Notes: generated by a model from the sequence alone, not told the origin. DNA of 61,069 nt from Spirochaetae bacterium HGW-Spirochaetae-1 (GCA_002839375.1 PGXY01000013.1:1-61069), one strand, 5' to 3'. Positions 988 to 37,021 are shown, counted from the stretch's first letter. A program made the numbers and translations.

Positions 988-1272
988 TCACTTTTTATCT
1001 TTTGGCTTAAACATCTGCAGCATCCGGTCGGTAACCAGAAATCCTCCAACAACATTTATCATGGCGAGGATGATTGATAAAGCTCCCAGTATCCTGCTTT
1101 CCAGAAGAATCGCAAAGGATGTGGATACAAGTGCACCAAGAATAGTGATGCCAGAAAAGGCATTCATTCCCGACATAAGAGGGGTATGCAGCAGCGAAGG
1201 AACATTGCTGATTAATTTATACCCGATGAGCATTGATGCAATGAAAACTGCCAGCAGGATATATCCGTTCAT
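988..1272 (-). CDS. pntA2: NAD(P) transhydrogenase alpha subunit, membrane part
   Basis: A 94-residue membrane protein with three hydrophobic segments (about residues 3-18, 38-58 and 62-82), including the family stretch HTPLMSGMNAFSGI. In E. coli this is the C-terminal part of PntA; here it is a separate gene, as in many bacteria with three-subunit transhydrogenases. Its start overlaps the end of pntA1 by 4 bp (1269-1272), which suggests translational coupling. It should form part of the proton channel with PntB. Confidence 0.93.
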   Translation of the reverse strand: MNGYILLAVFIASMLIGYKLISNVPSLLHTPLMSGMNAFSGITILGALVSTSFAILLESRILGALSIILAMINVVGGFLVTDRMLQMFKPKDKK

Positions 1273-2462
1273 TGAAGTCCCCCTGCCTTAAAGAGATTGA
1301 TTTCATCGATAACATCGGTATTGACTATTTTCCCCTCACGTGTAATCAGGGCTGAACGTAATATTTCATCGTCAGTATTTACAACAATTTTACCGTCATT
1401 AACTATAAGAGAAACGAGATGGAAGATGTTTTGTGCAAACATCCAACTTGCACTGGAGGGAACAGAGCCGGGTATATTCTGTGTCCCGTCAATGTAGATA
1501 TTGTGCTTGCAGGCAATAGTGCCTGGTTCGGTAAGCTCGCAGTTTCCTCCCTGGTCTACAGAAATATCAACGATATATGAACCGGGTTTCATGGATTTAA
1601 CCATATCCTCGGTTATAAGCAAGGGGGCGATTTTTTTTGGAATAAGCGCCGTCAATACCAGTATGTCAGATTGCGAAACGATATCCTTGATTGCTTCTCT
1701 TTCTTTTTTTAATAATTCATCGGGAAGGTGTTTGGCGTAACCGCCTTCACCGATAGCCAATGCGGGAGGGATGGTGGTATCGATGATTTTTGCACCAAGA
1801 CTGACAGCCTGTTCTACTGCGTCAGGCCTGATGTCCGCTGCATAGGTGACTGCTCCAAGCCGTTTGGCTGTAGCCAGGGCCTGCAGGCCGGCAACACCGG
1901 CGCCTATGATAAAAACGACAGCAGGTTTAATCGCTCCCACTGCAGTACCTACCATGGGTATGAATTTGGGTAGCTTGCAGGCTGCAGTAATGATGCCCTT
2001 GTAACCCGCCACAGTGCTCATGGAAGTAAGAGCATCCATGGATTGAGCCCTGGTTATTCTGGGAATGCAGTCCAGGGAAAAGCTTATTATGCCTTTCTCG
2101 GCAAGCTTGTTCACCATAGCATGATTGTTGGGATTGGCCGGGTGGATAAATGTTATGAGAATCTGATCCTTTTTCATCATATCAATTTCATGTATATTAT
2201 GGGTTTCGTTCAGTTTAGGTTCTTTTACCTTCATGATAATATGGGATCGTGTGAAAATTTCACGAACATCAGTAATTATCTCAGCGCCGGCTTGTACATA
2301 TTCCTCATCGGTAAAAAAAGATCCCTTTCCGGCATCTTTCTCAACGAGTATGACAGCGCCTCCGTCATGCATTTTTTTGACGGTCTCAGGAATGGCCGCA
2401 ACCCGGTTTTCATTTTTCATAATTTCTTTTGGGATCCCGATTGTTAGACCTTTAAATTTCAT
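1269..2462 (-). CDS. pntA1: NAD(P) transhydrogenase alpha subunit, NAD-binding part
   Basis: A 397-residue soluble subunit that binds NAD(H) on the cytoplasmic face. It begins MKFKGLTIGIPKEIMKNENRVA, typical of the alanine dehydrogenase/PntA N-terminal domain, and holds a Rossmann motif VFIIGAGVAGLQALATAKRLGA near residues 180-200 and the DQGGNCE segment near residue 305. An AAGGAG site sits 7 nt before the ATG. A TetR-type operator (2505-2522) lies 43 bp upstream of the start codon, so transcription is probably controlled by the neighbouring tetR product. It starts the operon pntA1-pntA2-pntB. Confidence 0.95.
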   Translation of the reverse strand: MKFKGLTIGIPKEIMKNENRVAAIPETVKKMHDGGAVILVEKDAGKGSFFTDEEYVQAGAEIITDVREIFTRSHIIMKVKEPKLNETHNIHEIDMMKKDQILITFIHPANPNNHAMVNKLAEKGIISFSLDCIPRITRAQSMDALTSMSTVAGYKGIITAACKLPKFIPMVGTAVGAIKPAVVFIIGAGVAGLQALATAKRLGAVTYAADIRPDAVEQAVSLGAKIIDTTIPPALAIGEGGYAKHLPDELLKKEREAIKDIVSQSDILVLTALIPKKIAPLLITEDMVKSMKPGSYIVDISVDQGGNCELTEPGTIACKHNIYIDGTQNIPGSVPSSASWMFAQNIFHLVSLIVNDGKIVVNTDDEILRSALITREGKIVNTDVIDEINLFKAGGLQ

Positions 2463-2504: not shown

Positions 2505-2522
2505 TGAGTAAGTACTCACTCA
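2505..2522. promoter_or_regulatory. TetR-type operator in front of pntA1
   Basis: TGAGTAAGTACTCACTCA, an 18-bp inverted repeat with one mismatch between half-sites. It matches two other sites in this window (3371-3388 and 3576-3593) in the pattern TGAGT-N8-ACTCA. A minus-strand TTGACT (2553-2558) with a weak TAATCT-like -10 lies just upstream, so the palindrome would fall at or just after the transcription start of pnt. Binding by the adjacent TetR protein is inferred. Confidence 0.75.
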
Positions 2523-2617: not shown

Positions 2618-3274
2618 TTACTTCCTGGGGGCCAGGGCGCCGCGTATAAAGTGCATTATACCCTTGATCATTTTTTCGTCATTTTCAAGGGAATCTTCAC
2701 CGGCGAAAATCTTCATCCGTTCCTTGAAATATTCACTGGCGTAGGAGAACTGCAGTAACACAATCAGGTTATCCAGACAGAAGGAAAAAACGAATTCATC
2801 GATCGACTGATCAACAAGTCCGTCATTTTTAGCCTTATTTATCATGTCTCGATAGTATTTTGCCGTAATGCTTTCAAAATCGCGTGATAGTCTTTGCTGA
2901 AGATAGGTGAGGCCTTCCGAGGTGATATCCAGGTATATTTGCGTCAGTTCACGGTATTGCCGGGAGCTTTTCTGGGCAACTCTTATAAGGGATTCGAATT
3001 TATCAAAAATATCACCTTCCATCACGCTCACTTCGACAAGAGCCTTTTCGAGCAATTTGTATCCCTGGTCAAAAACAGTAAGGAAAAGGTCTTCTTTGGA
3101 GGCAAAATAATTATACATGGAGCCAATACTGATACCGGCATTTTTAGCGATGACGTTGATATTTGCCGCAGAAAAACCTTTTTCGGCGAATTCCTTTGTT
3201 GCAGCCTGGAGAATTCTTCCTCTCTTTTCATCGGAAATTTTATCGAAGGTCTCTTTGTGCCGTTTTTCATTCAT
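2618..3274 (-). CDS. TetR/AcrR family transcriptional regulator
   Basis: A 218-residue regulator with an N-terminal TetR DNA-binding domain: an RILQAATKEFAEKGF helix at about residues 19-33 and the helix-turn-helix with AGISIGSMYNYFASKEDLF at about 46-64. The C-terminal ligand domain is too variable to name a ligand. A GGAG site sits 8 nt before the ATG. The gene lies between the pnt operon and a divergent SCP2/aminotransferase/transketolase operon; all three units carry the same 18-bp palindrome upstream. The palindrome resembles the layout of the B. subtilis FadR site (TGAATGANTANTCATTCA), a TetR protein that senses long-chain acyl-CoA. A lipid-like or acyl-CoA ligand is therefore a reasonable guess, not a demonstrated fact. 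Confidence 0.9.
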   Translation of the reverse strand: MNEKRHKETFDKISDEKRGRILQAATKEFAEKGFSAANINVIAKNAGISIGSMYNYFASKEDLFLTVFDQGYKLLEKALVEVSVMEGDIFDKFESLIRVAQKSSRQYRELTQIYLDITSEGLTYLQQRLSRDFESITAKYYRDMINKAKNDGLVDQSIDEFVFSFCLDNLIVLLQFSYASEYFKERMKIFAGEDSLENDEKMIKGIMHFIRGALAPRK

Positions 3275-3360
3275 GCTATTTTCTCCATGATTTTATCCAT
3301 TAAAAAGCGGATATTCAGTCTGTAAATAAGAAATTAATTTTTTACCTGATTGTCAAATAA

Positions 3361-3398
3361 GTTAAGTATATGAGTGAACAATCACTCATATACTTAAC
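3361..3398. promoter_or_regulatory. Extended operator/inverted repeat upstream of tetR
   Basis: A perfect 17-bp inverted repeat (GTTAAGTATATGAGTGA and its complement) around the 4-nt centre ACAA. Its core at 3371-3388 (TGAGTGAACAATCACTCA) is one of the three matching operators. It lies about 90 bp upstream of the tetR start codon. A minus-strand TTGACA (3399-3404) abuts it, so bound repressor would block the tetR promoter: probable autoregulation. Confidence 0.75.
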
Positions 3399-3538
3399 TG
3401 TCAAGAAAATAAATTATTTTATATACTGATAATAAATCTATACAACGTTTAATATTATAAAATATTTACTTTCTTCTTATGAAAAATTATTGATATTTTA
3501 ACGAATAATGATAAATTCTAACAATTGCTGTTTTTTTC

Positions 3539-3593
3539 TTGACATTGTGGTAGTATAAGCAATAACTATTCATAATGAGTTAGCGCTCACTCA
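3539..3593 (+). promoter_or_regulatory. Promoter with TetR-type operator for the SCP2-transketolase operon
   Basis: A consensus -35 TTGACA at 3539-3544 is followed after about 17-18 bp by an A/T-rich -10 candidate (ATAACT or TAACTA, 3562-3568). The palindrome TGAGTTAGCGCTCACTCA (3576-3593) falls where transcription should start. The rest of the 446-bp gap between tetR and the first SCP2 gene is A/T-rich and shows no coding potential. The leader from here to the ATG at 3721 is about 130 nt. Confidence 0.65.
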
Positions 3594-3720: not shown

Positions 3721-4482
3721 ATGAGCTATGATCTGATCAAAGCAAATCTTAATCTTTATGCTGTGTTGCAAAATCTCGAGGATATGATCAAATATGATTC
3801 CGAGATGAATGCGCTTGCAAAAGATTGGGATATTTCTATTCAGTTTCTGGTCAAAAACGGTCCCAAAGCCTTCATCGAATTTAAAAAAGGTGTCTGCACC
3901 GTGGGCCGCGGGAAGTATAAATGGCCATCGGTAAAACTATTTTTTACCTCACCTCAGCATCTAAATAAAATGATGGATGGGAAAGGGGGACCGATTCCAA
4001 TAAAAGGATTTACCAAAATCGGTTTTCTTTTAAAGGATTTTCCCAAAGTCACGGAAAAACTGGAATATTATCTCAAACCTACCGACGAACTCCTCAAAGA
4101 TGAAAATTTCGCGACAATGAATACCCGGCTTACCATGAATACCGCAGCATTTGCCATAAGGGAAATCGGGCTCAATGATCCGTTGCTAAAAAGTGTGGCG
4201 TCACATATGATGGATGGAACAGTCGGGCTTAATGTACTTGCCGGCGGACCCTCTGTGCATATTACATTCAGCCATGGTGAAATTACACCGGGCAAAGGGG
4301 CTGTGGATAAACCCATGGCGAAAATTGATTTCAAGAATCTGAAAATTGCTAATAACTTTCTCAACGGGAAGAGTGATGCCTTTACGGAAATTGCTTCAGG
4401 GAATGTTATGATTAAAGGGCAGACTGGCATGATAGACGGCATGTCCCTTATCCTTGATAGAATACCCTATTACTTAGGTTGA
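3721..4482 (+). CDS. Double SCP2-type lipid-binding protein
   Basis: A 253-residue soluble protein without signal peptide. Two halves each resemble an SCP2 sterol-carrier fold: about residues 37-115 (ending in the GKGGPIPIKGFTKIGFL stretch) and about 150-245 (with PSVHITFSHGEITPG, then IASGNVMIKGQTGMI). SCP2 domains hold hydrophobic ligands such as fatty acyl-CoA, sterols or isoprenoids. A strong AAGGAG site precedes the ATG. It is the first gene of the operon controlled by the operator at 3576-3593, 13 bp ahead of the aminotransferase. The last gene of the operon encodes a second protein of the same build. The ligand cannot be read from the sequence. The SCP2 assignment rests on the pattern of the conserved half-motifs and is fairly, not fully, secure. 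Confidence 0.75.
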   Translation: MSYDLIKANLNLYAVLQNLEDMIKYDSEMNALAKDWDISIQFLVKNGPKAFIEFKKGVCTVGRGKYKWPSVKLFFTSPQHLNKMMDGKGGPIPIKGFTKIGFLLKDFPKVTEKLEYYLKPTDELLKDENFATMNTRLTMNTAAFAIREIGLNDPLLKSVASHMMDGTVGLNVLAGGPSVHITFSHGEITPGKGAVDKPMAKIDFKNLKIANNFLNGKSDAFTEIASGNVMIKGQTGMIDGMSLILDRIPYYLG

Positions 4483-4495
4483 GAGAGGTGGAAAA

Positions 4496-5746
4496 ATGAA
4501 AACATTTACGTATAAAAAGCAGCAGGCACTGTTTAAAAAAGCAACCGGTGTTATGCCCTGCGGAATTTATGGACACTACAGTCCGGCCCCATTGATTCCT
4601 GCAACGGATTATCCCTTTTTCACATCGAAGGCAAAAGGGGCCCATATATGGGATCCCGATGGAAACCAGTTCATCGATTACATGTGCGCTTATGGACCCA
4701 TGGTTCACGGATATGCAAATCCGAAGATCGATTCTGCAGCAGCAAAATCGGCCAGACTGGGCAATTGCACAACGGGAGCTCCACCGGTCATGGTGGAACT
4801 TGCTGAATATCTTGTCGATATGACTGCCGGCATGAGCTGGGCTTTTTTCGCAAAGAATGGCGCCGACACTACAAATTATGCCGTAATGATTGCACGTGAC
4901 GCGACAGGGCGCAACAAAATCATTACTTACGACGGCTGTTATCACGGAACATCTCCATGGATGCAGGGGAATGGACATCACGGCGTCATTGAAGACGACA
5001 CAAAATATGTTCTCAAGGCAAAATGGAATGATTATGCCGATTTTGAACGGGTTGTCAGGGAAAACAAGGGACAGATAGCTGCCCTGATCGCATCTCCCTA
5101 CCTGGTTCCTACATTCAGGGACAATGAACTTCCCGCGGAAGGATACTGGGAAAATGTTGATGCCCTGTGTAAACGTGAGGGAATCATTCTCATTTCCGAT
5201 GATATAAGGCATGGATTCAGGATAGATCTTCGCGGTTCACATGCTAAATACGGATATGAGCCCGACCTGGTATGCTATTGCAAGGCCATAGGTAACGGTT
5301 ATCCGATTTCCGCTTGTCTCGGCACCAGTGGCATGAAACAGTATGCGGCCCGCGTATTCCACACGGGAAGTTATTGGTTCCAGTCCGAACCCATGGCTGC
5401 GGCTCTTGCGTCCCTGAAGGAGCACAAGAGACTGAATACTCCCAAGGTTTGTACTGAGAAGGGAACAAAACTTCTCACCGGCCTTGTCGGTATTGCGGCG
5501 GGATACGGTTATGAACTCAAGACCAGCGGTGACCCATCCATGCCGTACCTCAGGATAACCAATGATCCGAGCCTCATGCTGCATCAGGACTGGTGTGCTG
5601 AATCGACAAAACGTGGCGCGTTTTTCACCTCTCACCACAACTGGTTTATATCAACAGCCCATACCGATGCAGATATTAAAAAAACACTGCAGATCGCCGA
5701 TGAGGCTTTTAAAGTGATTAAGAAAAAATATGGTGACGAGTTTTAA
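4496..5746 (+). CDS. Class III PLP-dependent aminotransferase / aminomutase-like enzyme
   Basis: A 416-residue enzyme of the glutamate-1-semialdehyde aminomutase/class III aminotransferase type. Visible motifs: the N-terminal GAHIWDPDGNQFIDYMCAYG (about 47-66), the YHGTSPW segment, the PLP-ring aspartate in DDIRHGFR (D235), and the Schiff-base lysine in CYCKAIGNGYPISA (K263). It is not hemL in context: no other tetrapyrrole gene lies nearby, and the N-terminal LFKKATGVMPCGIYGHYSPAPL differs from the usual HemL start. It sits between a double-SCP2 protein and a split transketolase in one operon, so its amino acceptor could be a ketose or ketol made by the transketolase partner. That is inference. 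A GAGGTGG ribosome site precedes the ATG. Confidence 0.85.
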   Translation: MKTFTYKKQQALFKKATGVMPCGIYGHYSPAPLIPATDYPFFTSKAKGAHIWDPDGNQFIDYMCAYGPMVHGYANPKIDSAAAKSARLGNCTTGAPPVMVELAEYLVDMTAGMSWAFFAKNGADTTNYAVMIARDATGRNKIITYDGCYHGTSPWMQGNGHHGVIEDDTKYVLKAKWNDYADFERVVRENKGQIAALIASPYLVPTFRDNELPAEGYWENVDALCKREGIILISDDIRHGFRIDLRGSHAKYGYEPDLVCYCKAIGNGYPISACLGTSGMKQYAARVFHTGSYWFQSEPMAAALASLKEHKRLNTPKVCTEKGTKLLTGLVGIAAGYGYELKTSGDPSMPYLRITNDPSLMLHQDWCAESTKRGAFFTSHHNWFISTAHTDADIKKTLQIADEAFKVIKKKYGDEF

Positions 5747-5821
5747 CAGAAATGCTGACGAGTCATCGAGGGATATAAAATACCATCGTATATCCCGTTA
5801 AAAATATATCAGGAGGACAGT

Positions 5822-6655
5822 ATGCCACTTACAGATCAGGAAATAAAAGAGCTGAAAGCCAGAGCGAAACAGATTCGCCTGGATATAATTGACACGACTG
5901 TAGCTGCGGGCGGAGCCCATATCGGCGGCGGGATGAGCATAGTGGAAATTATGACCATCCTTTATTACAAGTATGCCAAAGTCGATCCATCAAACCCAAA
6001 ATGGGAGGATCGCGATCGTATTATAGTGAGTAAAGGACACGCCGGCGTATGCGTTGCACCGGTGCTGGCAAACAAGGGATATTTTCCCCGCGAAGATCTA
6101 AAAACATTTAATCAGTTCAATTCACCTTTCGGAATGCACCTGGACAGCCTGAAAGTAAAGGGAGTTGACGCCTCAACCGGTTCCCTGGGGCATGGATTAT
6201 CCATGTCCGTCGGAATGGCGCTGGGGGCCCGTGTCCAGGGAAAATCATGGAATACCTATTGCATCCTCGGCGACGGTGAGTGTAATGAGGGATCCGTATG
6301 GGAAGCCGCCATGTCGGCAAGCCACTTCAAACTGACAAATCTCATAACATTTGTAGATAGAAATAATCTTATGATTGACGGTCCGACAGAACAGGTTATG
6401 AGGCTGGAACCCTTCGCCGACAAATGGAAGGCTTTCGGATTTATCGTCAAGGAGATTGATGGTCACGACTTCAATGCTCTTTCGGAAGCAATTGAATATG
6501 CTCATTCTGAAAAGTCAGGCCCTGTATTAATCCTGTGTCACACGATAAAAGGGAAGGGTGTCGATTTTATGGAAAATGAAGTTAAATGGCACTACGGCAG
6601 TGTGGATTCCGTACTGGCCCAGAAGGCCCGTGAATCTGTTGAGAAAATGTCATGA
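5822..6655 (+). CDS. Transketolase, N-terminal (thiamine diphosphate-binding) subunit
   Basis: A 277-residue half-transketolase. It carries the substrate and TPP motifs GGGMSIVEIMTILYYKYA, SKGHAG, STGSLGHGLSMSVGMALG and the Mg-TPP signature GDGECNEGSVWEAA followed by VDRNN. A textbook AGGAGG site precedes the ATG, 75 bp after the aminotransferase. Split transketolases occur in archaea and many bacteria; they may serve the pentose phosphate pathway or transfer a two-carbon ketol unit in special biosynthesis. Wedged in a TetR-controlled lipid-binding/aminotransferase operon, a dedicated role is more likely than general sugar metabolism (inference). Confidence 0.93.
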   Translation: MPLTDQEIKELKARAKQIRLDIIDTTVAAGGAHIGGGMSIVEIMTILYYKYAKVDPSNPKWEDRDRIIVSKGHAGVCVAPVLANKGYFPREDLKTFNQFNSPFGMHLDSLKVKGVDASTGSLGHGLSMSVGMALGARVQGKSWNTYCILGDGECNEGSVWEAAMSASHFKLTNLITFVDRNNLMIDGPTEQVMRLEPFADKWKAFGFIVKEIDGHDFNALSEAIEYAHSEKSGPVLILCHTIKGKGVDFMENEVKWHYGSVDSVLAQKARESVEKMS

Positions 6656-6702
6656 CGGATTGCGTGACAGCGAATTTCATGAAATAACATGAGGAGGATT
6701 AC

Positions 6703-7719
6703 ATGAGCACAAAATCAGGAACAACCTGGACAGTATATGACGCAAACACCATGACGCAGGCCGAAATTTATGGTCAGGTGCTTTGCGATCTTGGTGCCGC
6801 AAACCCTAAAATCGTGGGGCTTTCTGCTGACCTTGCCAAGTCAACAAAAATAGGTATGTTCGGGGACAAATTCCCCGATAGATTTTTCAATGTGGGCATT
6901 GCCGAGCAGAATATGTTCGGTGTAGCTGCGGGCCTTGCCCGTTCCGGACTTCTGCCCTTTGTTTCAACGATGGCCGCTTTCGTAACCATGCGGGCCGGCG
7001 AACAGGTCAGGACCGATATCTGCTATCAGAATCTCGATGTAAAAATTATAGCCACCCACGGCGGAACATCCTTTGGCGCTGCCGGCTCTACACATCATTG
7101 CACGGAGGACCTGGCGATCACCAGGGCATTCCCCAACATGACGGTCATTGTGCCGGCCGATGGTATCGAAACGTCCAATGCGATCAAGGCTTGTGTTGAC
7201 TGGCCCGGTCCGGTTTATATCCGTATCGGAAGAGGATTCGAACCCACGTATTACCAGGATGAAAATTACGGATTCCAGATCGGGAAAGCCGTGGAACTCA
7301 ATCCCGGTACCGATATAACCATCATATGCTGTGGTATTACGGTACTGCAGGCCATGGAAGCGGCCAAAATCCTGAAAGAATCAGATGGCCTGAGCGTTCG
7401 TGTATTAAATATGCATACTATAAAGCCAATTGATGAAGAAGCTATTCTGAAGGCCGTTGTGGAAACACGGAGAATAATCACTTTCGAGGATCACAATGTT
7501 CTTGGAGGTTTAGGTTCTGCCGTAGCTGATGTAGTTGCCAAGAGCGGAAAGGGGTGTGCCTTTGACAAGGTAGGAATCCCCGACTGTTTCTGCGTAGTTG
7601 GCTATCCCGAGGACCTGTACTCCCATTATGGTCTTGATTCCAATTCAATTATCGACAAGGTGCGAGAGGTAATGGGCAAGGATTTCGAGGAAGACGAAAG
7701 CTGGGAAGACGAGGTGTAA
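6703..7719 (+). CDS. Transketolase, C-terminal (pyrimidine-binding) subunit
   Basis: A 338-residue partner of the upstream subunit. It contains the pyrimidine-binding-domain motifs SADLAKSTK, FNVGIAEQNMFGVAAGLA (with the catalytic glutamate of AEQN), HGGTSFGAAGSTHHCTEDLA and the C-terminal domain VETRRIITFEDHNVLGGLGSAVAD. The acidic tail EEDESWEDEV is longer than usual. An AGGAGG site precedes the ATG. It should form an alpha2beta2 enzyme with the product of 5822-6655. The downstream SCP2 gene starts 3 bp after its stop, so the two are probably translationally coupled. Confidence 0.93.
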   Translation: MSTKSGTTWTVYDANTMTQAEIYGQVLCDLGAANPKIVGLSADLAKSTKIGMFGDKFPDRFFNVGIAEQNMFGVAAGLARSGLLPFVSTMAAFVTMRAGEQVRTDICYQNLDVKIIATHGGTSFGAAGSTHHCTEDLAITRAFPNMTVIVPADGIETSNAIKACVDWPGPVYIRIGRGFEPTYYQDENYGFQIGKAVELNPGTDITIICCGITVLQAMEAAKILKESDGLSVRVLNMHTIKPIDEEAILKAVVETRRIITFEDHNVLGGLGSAVADVVAKSGKGCAFDKVGIPDCFCVVGYPEDLYSHYGLDSNSIIDKVREVMGKDFEEDESWEDEV

Positions 7720-7722
7720 ACC

Positions 7723-8499
7723 ATGGCAACAGAAAGGGATCTACTGGCATCACAAATTATATTAAAAGCAGTATTGCCGGTTGCCAAAGTGGTTATAGAA
7801 GAAGTACCGGCGATGAAGAAAAAGTTTCAGGGAGTGAACGCCACATTCCAGATTCAGGCAAAAAACGGCGATGAAAACATCGGGGCTTATTTCAAGTTCA
7901 CTGATGGGGAGCTTGAAATTGTCCAGGGTGTTCATGGAAACCCCGATATAAGGTTTGCCTTTGGTAAACCGGAAAGCATGGTTGCCTTTCTTACCGGCGG
8001 GATAGCACTGCCAAAAATAAAGGGACTTGGGAAGCCGGGACTTCTCATGAAATGCGTGGGATTACTGCTCAGTTTAACTATCCTGCTTCCCAACAAGAGA
8101 CCCAAAAAATATGACCAGGTTAGACTCAAGGTGAAGATGGTCATGTACATGATCACCACTGCGCTTTCACAGTACAACAAGGGAGGTGATCCCGAAATGG
8201 TAAGGTGGACCACCAAACAGCCGGATCGCATTTACCAGATGTCATGCGAACCGGAAGGGATTGCCGCCTATGTCCGCGTGAAAGCTGGTAAGACCAAGGC
8301 AGGCCGGGGGTACTATAAGAGGAAACACCCCTTTGTACATATGAAATTCCATGGCGCACAGGGTGCATTACCGGTTTTCATGAATGATGTCGAGTTCGTG
8401 GAAGCAGTGGCAAAAGGCTACGTGACTGTAGAAGGAGCGCCGGAATACGCTATGCATCTGAACAATCATATGCAGCAAATACAGGCGCTTATTACCTGA
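7723..8499 (+). CDS. Second double SCP2-type lipid-binding protein
   Basis: A 258-residue protein built like the first gene of this operon. Its first half (about 25-120) holds YFKFTDGELEIVQGVHGNPDIRF with FLTGGIALPKIKG, the usual SCP2 strand-loop-helix pattern. A hydrophobic helix follows (GLLLSLTILLPN, about 110-122). The second half (about 165-258) again shows the SCP2-like order, ending in FVEAVAKGYVTVEGAPEYA. No signal peptide. It is the last gene of the operon, directly coupled to the transketolase subunit, and is followed by a strong terminator at 8521-8560. It likely binds or presents a hydrophobic substrate or product of the pathway; the ligand is unknown. Confidence 0.72.
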   Translation: MATERDLLASQIILKAVLPVAKVVIEEVPAMKKKFQGVNATFQIQAKNGDENIGAYFKFTDGELEIVQGVHGNPDIRFAFGKPESMVAFLTGGIALPKIKGLGKPGLLMKCVGLLLSLTILLPNKRPKKYDQVRLKVKMVMYMITTALSQYNKGGDPEMVRWTTKQPDRIYQMSCEPEGIAAYVRVKAGKTKAGRGYYKRKHPFVHMKFHGAQGALPVFMNDVEFVEAVAKGYVTVEGAPEYAMHLNNHMQQIQALIT

Positions 8500-8520: not shown

Positions 8521-8560
8521 AAATGAAGATGGCGTGGATAATTCCACGCCATCTTCATTT
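8521..8560. terminator. Bidirectional terminator between SCP2 operon and por operon
   Basis: A perfect 18-bp inverted repeat (AAATGAAGATGGCGTGGA and its complement) around the loop TAAT. Its A/T ends supply the U-tract in either direction. It sits exactly between two convergent operons (stop codons at 8499 and 8579). Confidence 0.9.
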
Positions 8561-35605: not shown

Positions 35606-35701
35606 TAAATTATATGAATAAAGATGTCTTTTCTCTTGACTGCTTCACAATGCTGGCATAGAGTATATTTATTTATAGTAGCAACAGGTTATGAGGAGCA
35701 T

Positions 35702-37021
35702 ATGAATTTTATAATTAAATCGCTTGGCGAAAACAAATACAGGGCGAAGGATATTGTCAATTTTGCTGTTAAGGATTCCTACATAGTTTCAGACGAAAAA
35801 CGCCTTCTGCATAACATTTTTATCGATGAAAGGGGATACGATCCCTCTGACATGAAAAAAAGCTTTGAACTGGCCGGTCCCAGGGAAAAGCTTTTTTTCG
35901 ATCCGAAAACAACGAAATGCGCCATTGTAACCTGTGGTGGACTCTGTCCCGGGCTGAACGATGTTATCCGTTCCATTGTAATGGAATCCTACTACCGCTA
36001 TGGTGTTCGTTCAATAATTGGCATTAGATATGGTTATAACGGGCTTAATCCAGCCATGGGCTACCATCCCATAGAATTAACTCCCGAACTTGTGGAATCC
36101 ATACACATGGACGGCGGCACTATCCTTGGTTCGTCCAGGGGCGGAACCGACGATATGGAAATTCTGGTGAATACCCTGGAAAATATGAGTATAAACATTC
36201 TATATACTATCGGTGGTGATGGGACACTTCGGGGTGCCCATAAAATAAACGAGGTGGCAAAAAAAAGGGGTTATGATCTTTCTGTCGTCGGTATCCCTAA
36301 AACGATTGACAACGATATAAGCTTCATTCAGCGTTCTTTTGGTTTTGAGACTGCCTTCTCGAAGGCATCGGATTCGATTTACGCAGCCCATGCCGAAGCA
36401 AAGGGAGCACCTAACGGGATTGGTCTTGTGAAACTCATGGGCAGGCAGTCGGGATTTATCGCTGCCAACGCCACACTTGCCATGAATGATGTTAATTATG
36501 TTCTGGTGCCGGAAGTGCCTTTTGATCTGTATGGCGACCATGGGTTTTTGAACTGTCTTGAGAAGCGATTGTTAAATCGGGGGCATGCCGTTATCTGCGT
36601 TGCCGAGGGAGCAGGGCAGGACCTGATTAAAAAGGAACAGGAAAACAGGGGCCATGACGCTTCGGGGAATATTGTGCTGGATGACATCGGTATTTTTTTA
36701 AAGCACACTATCAATGAGTATTTCAAGGAGAAAAAGATTACTATCAATCTCAAATATATTGATCCAAGTTACATAATAAGAAGCGCTCCGGCAGTTCCCA
36801 ATGATTCAATATTCTGTGCAATTCTTGGACAGTACGCCGTACATGCGGGTATGGCAGGAAAAACCGATCTGGTGATCGGACAGTGGAACAATGTCTTTAT
36901 CCATATACCTATTGAACTTGCCATATCCAGTAGAAAGCAAATAGATCCAAATTCCCCATTCTGGAACAGTGTACTAGAGGCGACTGGTCAACCCGCATCC
37001 ATGGTTAATGCACAGTCGTAA
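35702..37021 (+). CDS. pfk: 6-phosphofructokinase (ATP-type motif)
   Basis: A 439-residue phosphofructokinase of the long, plant/spirochaete-like group. It shows [29 protein letters not shown], the PKTIDND active-site motif, [11 protein letters not shown] and [20 protein letters not shown]. The second glycine position of GGDGT points to ATP rather than pyrophosphate, although PKTIDND carries the lysine seen in both PPi- and plant-type ATP enzymes. The start is set at 35702, where GAGGAG precedes the ATG. The stop overlaps the next start (TAATG), so it is coupled to a cNMP-GGDEF gene, which is unusual for a glycolytic enzyme. Confidence 0.88.

Follow-up and report, generated by a model that had tools for sequence, protein, structure and literature searches.

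A stretch of 61,069 nucleotides from Spirochaetae bacterium HGW-Spirochaetae-1 (PGXY01000013.1:1-61069, here called the window) carries at positions 3721-8499 an operon of five genes. These encode a double-SCP2 protein (SCPa), an aminotransferase (AT), the two halves of a split transketolase (TKn and TKc, together TK) and a second double-SCP2 protein (SCPb). The operon probably encodes an inducible pathway for the breakdown of sphingoid bases (2-amino-1,3-diols). On balance, this breakdown would be independent of both oxygen and phosphorylation, with TK feeding two backbone carbons into the pentose-phosphate pathway and one double-SCP2 carrier serving each enzyme, in at least six phyla that include gut lineages. 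The original prediction, made from the sequence alone, described five co-directed genes 3-75 bp apart, and the open reading frame (ORF) calls agree: all five are on the + strand, with gaps of 13, 75, 47 and 3 bp.

3721..4482, + strand: SCPa, double-SCP2 protein predicted to carry lipid for AT (AlphaFold model, Foldseek, AT adjacency)
4496..5746, + strand: AT, class III pyridoxal phosphate (PLP) aminotransferase, FumI-like, predicted sphingoid-base deaminase (Pfam, conserved residues, tree)
5822..6655, + strand: TKn, N-terminal half of the split transketolase, binding thiamine diphosphate (ThDP) (Pfam Transketolase_N)
6703..7719, + strand: TKc, C-terminal half of the split transketolase (Pfam Transket_pyr and Transketolase_C)
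7723..8499, + strand: SCPb, double-SCP2 protein predicted to carry lipid for TK (Pfam SCP2, AlphaFold model, Foldseek)

In the proposed pathway, secreted ceramidases would free sphingoid bases outside the cell, and SCPa would hand the long-chain base to AT inside it. AT would transfer the 2-amino group of sphinganine to pyruvate, giving alanine and a 1,3-dihydroxy-2-ketone shaped like a donor substrate of transketolases (HOCH2-CO-CHOH-R). TK, no longer needing a sugar-like substrate, would shift the C1-C2 glycolaldehyde unit onto an aldose phosphate. The resulting ketose phosphate would enter the pentose-phosphate pathway, and the long-chain aldehyde would be held by SCPb and converted to fatty acid. 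Nitrogen and reducing power would be handled by alanine dehydrogenase (a transhydrogenase in the window's host), and a divergent TetR-family regulator would repress the operon and the ceramidase until a lipid signal arrives. Breakdown is favored because a ceramidase promoter carries the operator, the host has no match resembling serine palmitoyltransferase (SPT) at a threshold of 1e-60, and FumI is a pyruvate-using deaminase. The earlier idea that AT and TK act jointly on the amino or ketol head group of a hydrophobic molecule stands in this form, but not the idea that they make an amino-sugar-like head group, as the evidence points to sphingoid bases and to breakdown.

By sequence, AT is a class III aminotransferase, with a fold-type I profile (Pfam Aminotran_3, 8.3e-39) and the PLP lysine and aspartate. 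These two residues, K263 and D235, had been picked out at the start and are invariant in all 57 aminotransferases compared. The top solved relative is the aminopentol aminotransferase FumI (PDB 6hbs; 7e-87), with 295 bits versus 161 for the best glutamate-1-semialdehyde aminomutase in a single-sequence comparison, and 434 versus 244 in a family-profile comparison. In an IQ-TREE tree, 56 of the 57 operon aminotransferases form a pure clade (support 100), and all 57 group with FumI and its plasmid relatives (support 99), separate from the remaining spirochaete paralogues. The substrate of FumI, hydrolysed fumonisin B1, is an analogue of sphingoid bases, and the enzyme moves the 2-amino group of this compound onto pyruvate in a reaction independent of oxygen (PMC2933618). 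By analogy, AT may deaminate a sphingoid-type amine using pyruvate. It is labelled FumI-like only, since it is 38% identical to FumI and belongs to a sister clade (99% support). An identity as glutamate-1-semialdehyde aminomutase (HemL) was rejected on a score of 194 bits, versus an equivalog cut-off of 527, and on the FumI match. Six other loci (L086, G000:C4:68001-88000; L154, L158, L159, L163 and L166) have a paralogue of AT (38-42% identity) with a glyoxalase/VOC gene after it. The L086 locus also has a short-chain dehydrogenase/reductase (SDR) and a lactate-racemase-like gene. These loci represent a putative second system in the same spirochaetes.

TKn and TKc together look like a complete split transketolase, as had been proposed for the middle genes. 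TKn supplies the predicted ThDP-binding half (Transketolase_N, 3e-49) and TKc the predicted pyrimidine and C-terminal domains (Transket_pyr, 2e-38; Transketolase_C, 2e-29). Four catalytic histidines (H33, H73, H106 and H257) are invariant in 28 TK sequences. Residues were compared by human TKT numbering in 39 SCPb-linked TKs, all of which retain the catalytic glutamate (E366 equivalent), and S345, H416 and R474 are kept as well. In 36 of the 39, alanine or serine stands in for R318 (E. coli R358), a phosphate-binding residue. The aspartate that contacts the aldose hydroxyl (D424; E. coli D469) has given way to alanine or glycine in every one. The TKc of the window has A20 at the R318 position and A126/A127 at E423/D424. 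The full set of sugar contacts (R318, S345, H416, R474, D424) is incomplete, and the protein has the transketolase fold but apparently an altered specificity. The ordinary split TKs of Firmicutes that carry operon genes retain both the arginine and the aspartate. The surroundings of the catalytic histidines are also unlike those of common TKs, with GMHLD for GHPD and AHIGG for GHPGG.

The split TK of Carboxydothermus hydrogenoformans (6yaj/6yak; PMC7661550) is likewise encoded by two genes with the same domains and is the top solved relative of both halves. At the positions that contact phosphate and hydroxyl, it retains R, E and D where the operon TK has alanine, and it differs as well in the AHIGG motif and in the conserved acidic C-terminal tail, which are features of the operon TK. 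In E. coli TK, substitutions at R358, S385, D469 and R520 broaden the aldehyde range beyond sugar phosphates (PMC5073344, PMC7661550). From the contact changes and this engineering precedent, we infer that TK acts on a hydroxymethyl ketone whose tail is not a sugar; the product of sphinganine deamination would fit the shape of such a donor. TK is not the housekeeping transketolase, as the host genome has a separate one of 672 aa.

SCPa has no Pfam match, and of the two outer proteins the SCP2 profile matches SCPb only (4e-5). The claim that each has two SCP2-like halves is borne out by AlphaFold models (predicted local distance difference test scores of 94.1 for SCPa and 92.3 for SCPb), which contain the SCP2 unit twice. 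The nearest folds in Foldseek are SCP2, UbiJ and alkylsulfatase SCP2 domains for both proteins (E <= 1e-3). SCPa and SCPb are homologous over their full length (hhalign, 99.7%). Both models conform to the SCP2 alpha/beta fold, and the proteins are predicted to be carriers of hydrophobic ligands. SCPa pairs with AT, and SCPb lies directly 3' of TKc even where the TK module is separate from AT, suggesting one dedicated carrier per enzyme. The acidic tail of TKc (FEEDESWEDEV), which the solved split TK lacks, is near-invariant across phyla and is possibly a docking site for SCPb.

The pairing of these genes is widely conserved, and the five-gene operon is found in anaerobes from many phyla. The original prediction named the occurrence of the enzymes without SCP2 genes in plain sugar operons as evidence that would count against it. 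The search for this, run in part with AT in 59 Spirochaetota, found orthologs of at least 58% identity in 17 genomes beyond the window's own, each with SCPa beside it; only distant homologues (35-38%) lie without SCP2, in sugar-acid or ABC-transporter clusters. A scan of genome contigs with the single SCPa sequence gave no match, but a profile scan of named genomes with an SCPa alignment found 59 loci. These are in Spirochaetota, Desulfobacterota (Desulfatibacillum alkenivorans, Desulfosarcina widdelii, Desulfosudis), Myxococcota, Hydrogenedentota, Bacteroidota (Draconibacterium, Flavobacteriaceae) and Firmicutes (Oscillospiraceae, Paenibacillus), with one in an Anaerolineae. SCPa and AT are adjacent in 57 of the 59, the other two being fragments. 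This adjacency is conditional on SCPa as the query, and the AT search in Spirochaetota serves as the reverse test. The five-gene order, which had been suggested as something to look for elsewhere, is complete at about 26 of the 59 loci in several phyla. Since the gene set is conserved across phyla, the association is not due to chance.

TKn-TKc-SCPb forms a second module that is separate in one spirochaete family and duplicated in the window's own genome (L087, G000:C3:386001-406000). The duplicate and two further copies (L148, L149) are flanked by a zinc alcohol dehydrogenase (sorbitol/threonine dehydrogenase-like) and an extended SDR, without an aminotransferase; their TK perhaps works in the same way on a polyol lipid that has no amino group. 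Other neighbors include an amino-acid permease (APC) or SNF-family symporter directly 5' of SCPa-AT (L126:8582-12806; L088:8300-9769). Dihydroorotase and pyrimidine genes 3' of SCPa-AT in Oscillospiraceae were judged to be chance neighbors.

Upstream of the operon are the putative operators, a divergent regulator and a pair of transhydrogenase genes, and a hairpin follows it.

988..1272, - strand: PntAB-like NAD(P) transhydrogenase subunit, probable regulon member (ORF directly 3' of pntA)
1269..2462, - strand: PntAA-like transhydrogenase alpha, AlaDH/PNT family (ORF; phmmer match to the AlaDH/PNT protein of locus L093)
2505..2522: operator-like site TGAGTAAGTACTCACTCA, 1 mismatch, 43 bp upstream of the pnt genes
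2618..3274, - strand: TetR-family regulator, divergent from the operon (Pfam TetR_N, 3.7e-15)
3360..3399: putative main operator, 40-bp palindrome with perfect 18-bp arms, core TGAGTGA-N4-TCACTCA at 3371-3388
3576..3593: putative second operator site, 1 mismatch, in the operon promoter
8521..8560: hairpin with perfect 18-bp arms between convergent genes, probable terminator

The operator first noticed ahead of the operon corresponds to the palindrome and is joined by the second site at 3576-3593. The perfect terminator claimed for its end is the hairpin, which has its T-run on the - strand, so the convergent gene is probably served by it too. The PntAB-like family (c26) has an equivalent position at loci L072, L076 and L120.

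The TetR regulator is predicted to bind the TGAGTGA-N4-TCACTCA sites. Its orthologs in operon carriers are 52-62% identical, and palindromes with the same core lie upstream of SCPa at L089, L091, L104/L105, L107, L110, L113 and L114. The 5.2-Mb host genome has three perfect copies, versus 0.02 expected from composition, and 23 copies with at most two mismatches, versus six for a reversed control. The perfect copies precede this operon, a secreted neutral ceramidase with both Pfam domains (27 bp before its ATG), and a phosphofructokinase-family gene. Desulfosudis also has a one-mismatch copy 99 bp before a ceramidase gene. Further copies lie upstream of alanine dehydrogenase, at 26 bp in L092 (18-mer TGAGTAAGTACTCACTCA) and at 86 bp in genome G029, and 90 bp before an SPT-like ORF in genome G037. 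Around the two ceramidases examined in the operon-less genome G003 there is no operator site.

Phosphofructokinase-family genes have a perfect operator just upstream at L263:6342-7457 and L279:1520-2737 (the latter in the operon-less genome G006), and others are beside weaker sites (L266:5257-6450, L267:5624-6649). The window has a gene of this family at 35624-37021. In several spirochaete genomes (the f7 group; L277, L283-L286), a secreted family of ~330 aa with no Pfam match has a perfect operator in its promoter, and may possibly be a further lipid hydrolase.

Other neighbors link the operon genes to sphingolipids. A Eubacteriales metagenome-assembled genome has SPT-like, 3-ketodihydrosphingosine reductase (KDSR)-like, SCPa and AT genes in a tight row (L143:7960-12002). 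NF047600 (516 bits, cut-off 640) and NF049977 (218 bits, cut-off 400) are the best matches for the first two, yet both are below their equivalog cut-offs. SPT-like genes (at least 440 bits) occur in 11 of 18 spirochaetes with SCPa versus 2 of 21 without it (Fisher p = 0.0015, uncorrected for kinship). The window's host has no SPT-like match at a threshold of 1e-60, and has four ceramidase-like genes. A FadL-type porin gene is 3' of SCPb in L107, aldehyde dehydrogenase is beside the operon at four Bacteroidota loci, and alanine dehydrogenase is a neighbor in L093. A GH116 glycosidase adjoins the operon in two Flavobacteriaceae and is suggestive of glucosylceramide. GH116 includes other glycosidases, so this neighbor is not used as proof.

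Several observations weigh against sphingoid-base breakdown as the role of the operon. Natural D-erythro bases would yield a 3R ketol, and ordinary transketolases make and use 3S, so an altered stereopreference would be required of TK. Ceramidase presence fails to track the operon across Spirochaetota, and for this reason only the promoter sites are used as ceramidase evidence. The clade of FumI itself holds aminotransferases beside aldolases, tetronate kinases and ABC transporters; with these mixed contexts and 38% identity, FumI alone cannot fix the AT substrate. The Firmicutes with SCPa-AT lack an operon-type TK and SCPb, and where a carrier has an SPT-like gene, the operon genes could serve either turnover or synthesis. 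Other TetR regulators have operators similar to the TGAGTGA one. Among operon-less genomes, G006 has the perfect site before its phosphofructokinase gene and G003 and G015 retain a TetR ortholog, suggesting that the regulator may serve lipid catabolism more broadly.

The main rival is the reverse direction, an SPT-free synthesis of sphingoid bases in which TK transfers two carbons of a ketose phosphate onto a fatty aldehyde, and AT aminates the ketol. Both reactions are reversible, the amino donor could come via alanine dehydrogenase, and TK with a transaminase is an established laboratory route to amino alcohols (PMC5813273). At the threshold used, SPT-like genes are also missing from the window's host, from D. 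alkenivorans and from a number of further carriers, but many carriers already have one. The same operator at ceramidase promoters in two phyla, the FadL and aldehyde dehydrogenase neighbors and the TetR control also argue against synthesis, which is unlikely.

It is doubtful that the substrate is instead another long-chain amino-ketol or amino-alcohol lipid, such as a 1-deoxy lipid or aminopolyol. FumI acts on a 1-deoxy aminopentol, SCP2 proteins bind many lipids, and the AT and TK residues indicate only that the substrate is no phosphosugar. However, a transketolase requires a 1-hydroxy-2-ketone, which 1-deoxy lipids lack, and the ceramidase sites and the SPT-KDSR-SCPa-AT row indicate sphingolipids. 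Plain sugar or amino-sugar metabolism, with the SCP2 proteins incidental or enzyme partners, would suit the aldolases (class II) and tetronate kinases beside distant AT relatives and the three of four phosphate contacts retained in TK, but is highly improbable given the strict partnership of SCPa with AT and of SCPb with TK across many phyla, the loss of the sugar-hydroxyl aspartate in all 39 TKs, and the lipid-related neighbors and regulon.

Breakdown of sphingoid bases by this route would differ from the systems already described. FumI, of the fumonisin degradation system of Sphingopyxis (6hbs; PMC2933618), is the nearest characterised relative of AT and uses pyruvate, without oxygen, to take the amino group from C2 of a sphingoid analogue. 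The fumonisin system has no known SCP2 proteins or transketolase, and the FumI substrate lacks the 1-hydroxyl that a transketolase requires. Its cluster contains a different ThDP enzyme. The eukaryotic sphingosine-1-phosphate lyase route yields a long-chain aldehyde and a two-carbon piece, as proposed here. It requires a kinase and a PLP lyase, and the nitrogen stays on the C2 piece (ethanolamine phosphate), whereas the proposed route would remove the nitrogen first and pass C2 on to sugar phosphates. Neither a sphingosine kinase nor the PLP lyase is in the operon or its annotated neighbors; whole genomes were not searched for either. The Pseudomonas sphBCD system (PMC11893366) is also an inducible bacterial removal of sphingosine, but uses a periplasmic oxidase, cytochrome c and a predicted PLP aldolase, with no genes in common with the operon. 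Laboratory cascades of TK and transaminase likewise interconvert aldehyde, ketol and amino alcohol (PMC5813273), but are designed, with small substrates, in the synthetic direction and with no natural operon.

Open-access literature on sphingosine and transketolase gave nothing relevant. Every part of the operon is from a known family, and neither the gene combination, for which the original prediction also knew of no pathway, nor a lipid-backbone transketolase was found described in that literature. We know of no transketolase that acts on a membrane lipid, and the TK step, if proven, would count as a new pathway. It would explain a gene set currently annotated as aminotransferase, transketolase and SCP2, and would tie lipid turnover to sugar-phosphate metabolism as a natural counterpart of the laboratory cascade. 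Sphingoid bases and related mycotoxins might also be produced or removed with the help of these enzymes. In Oscillospiraceae of the gut, the SCPa-AT pair and an SPT-like gene occur together, which gives the system a bearing on host-microbe sphingolipid exchange. Sphingolipids are plentiful in guts and sediments, and anaerobes would gain the use of them if the pathway is as proposed.

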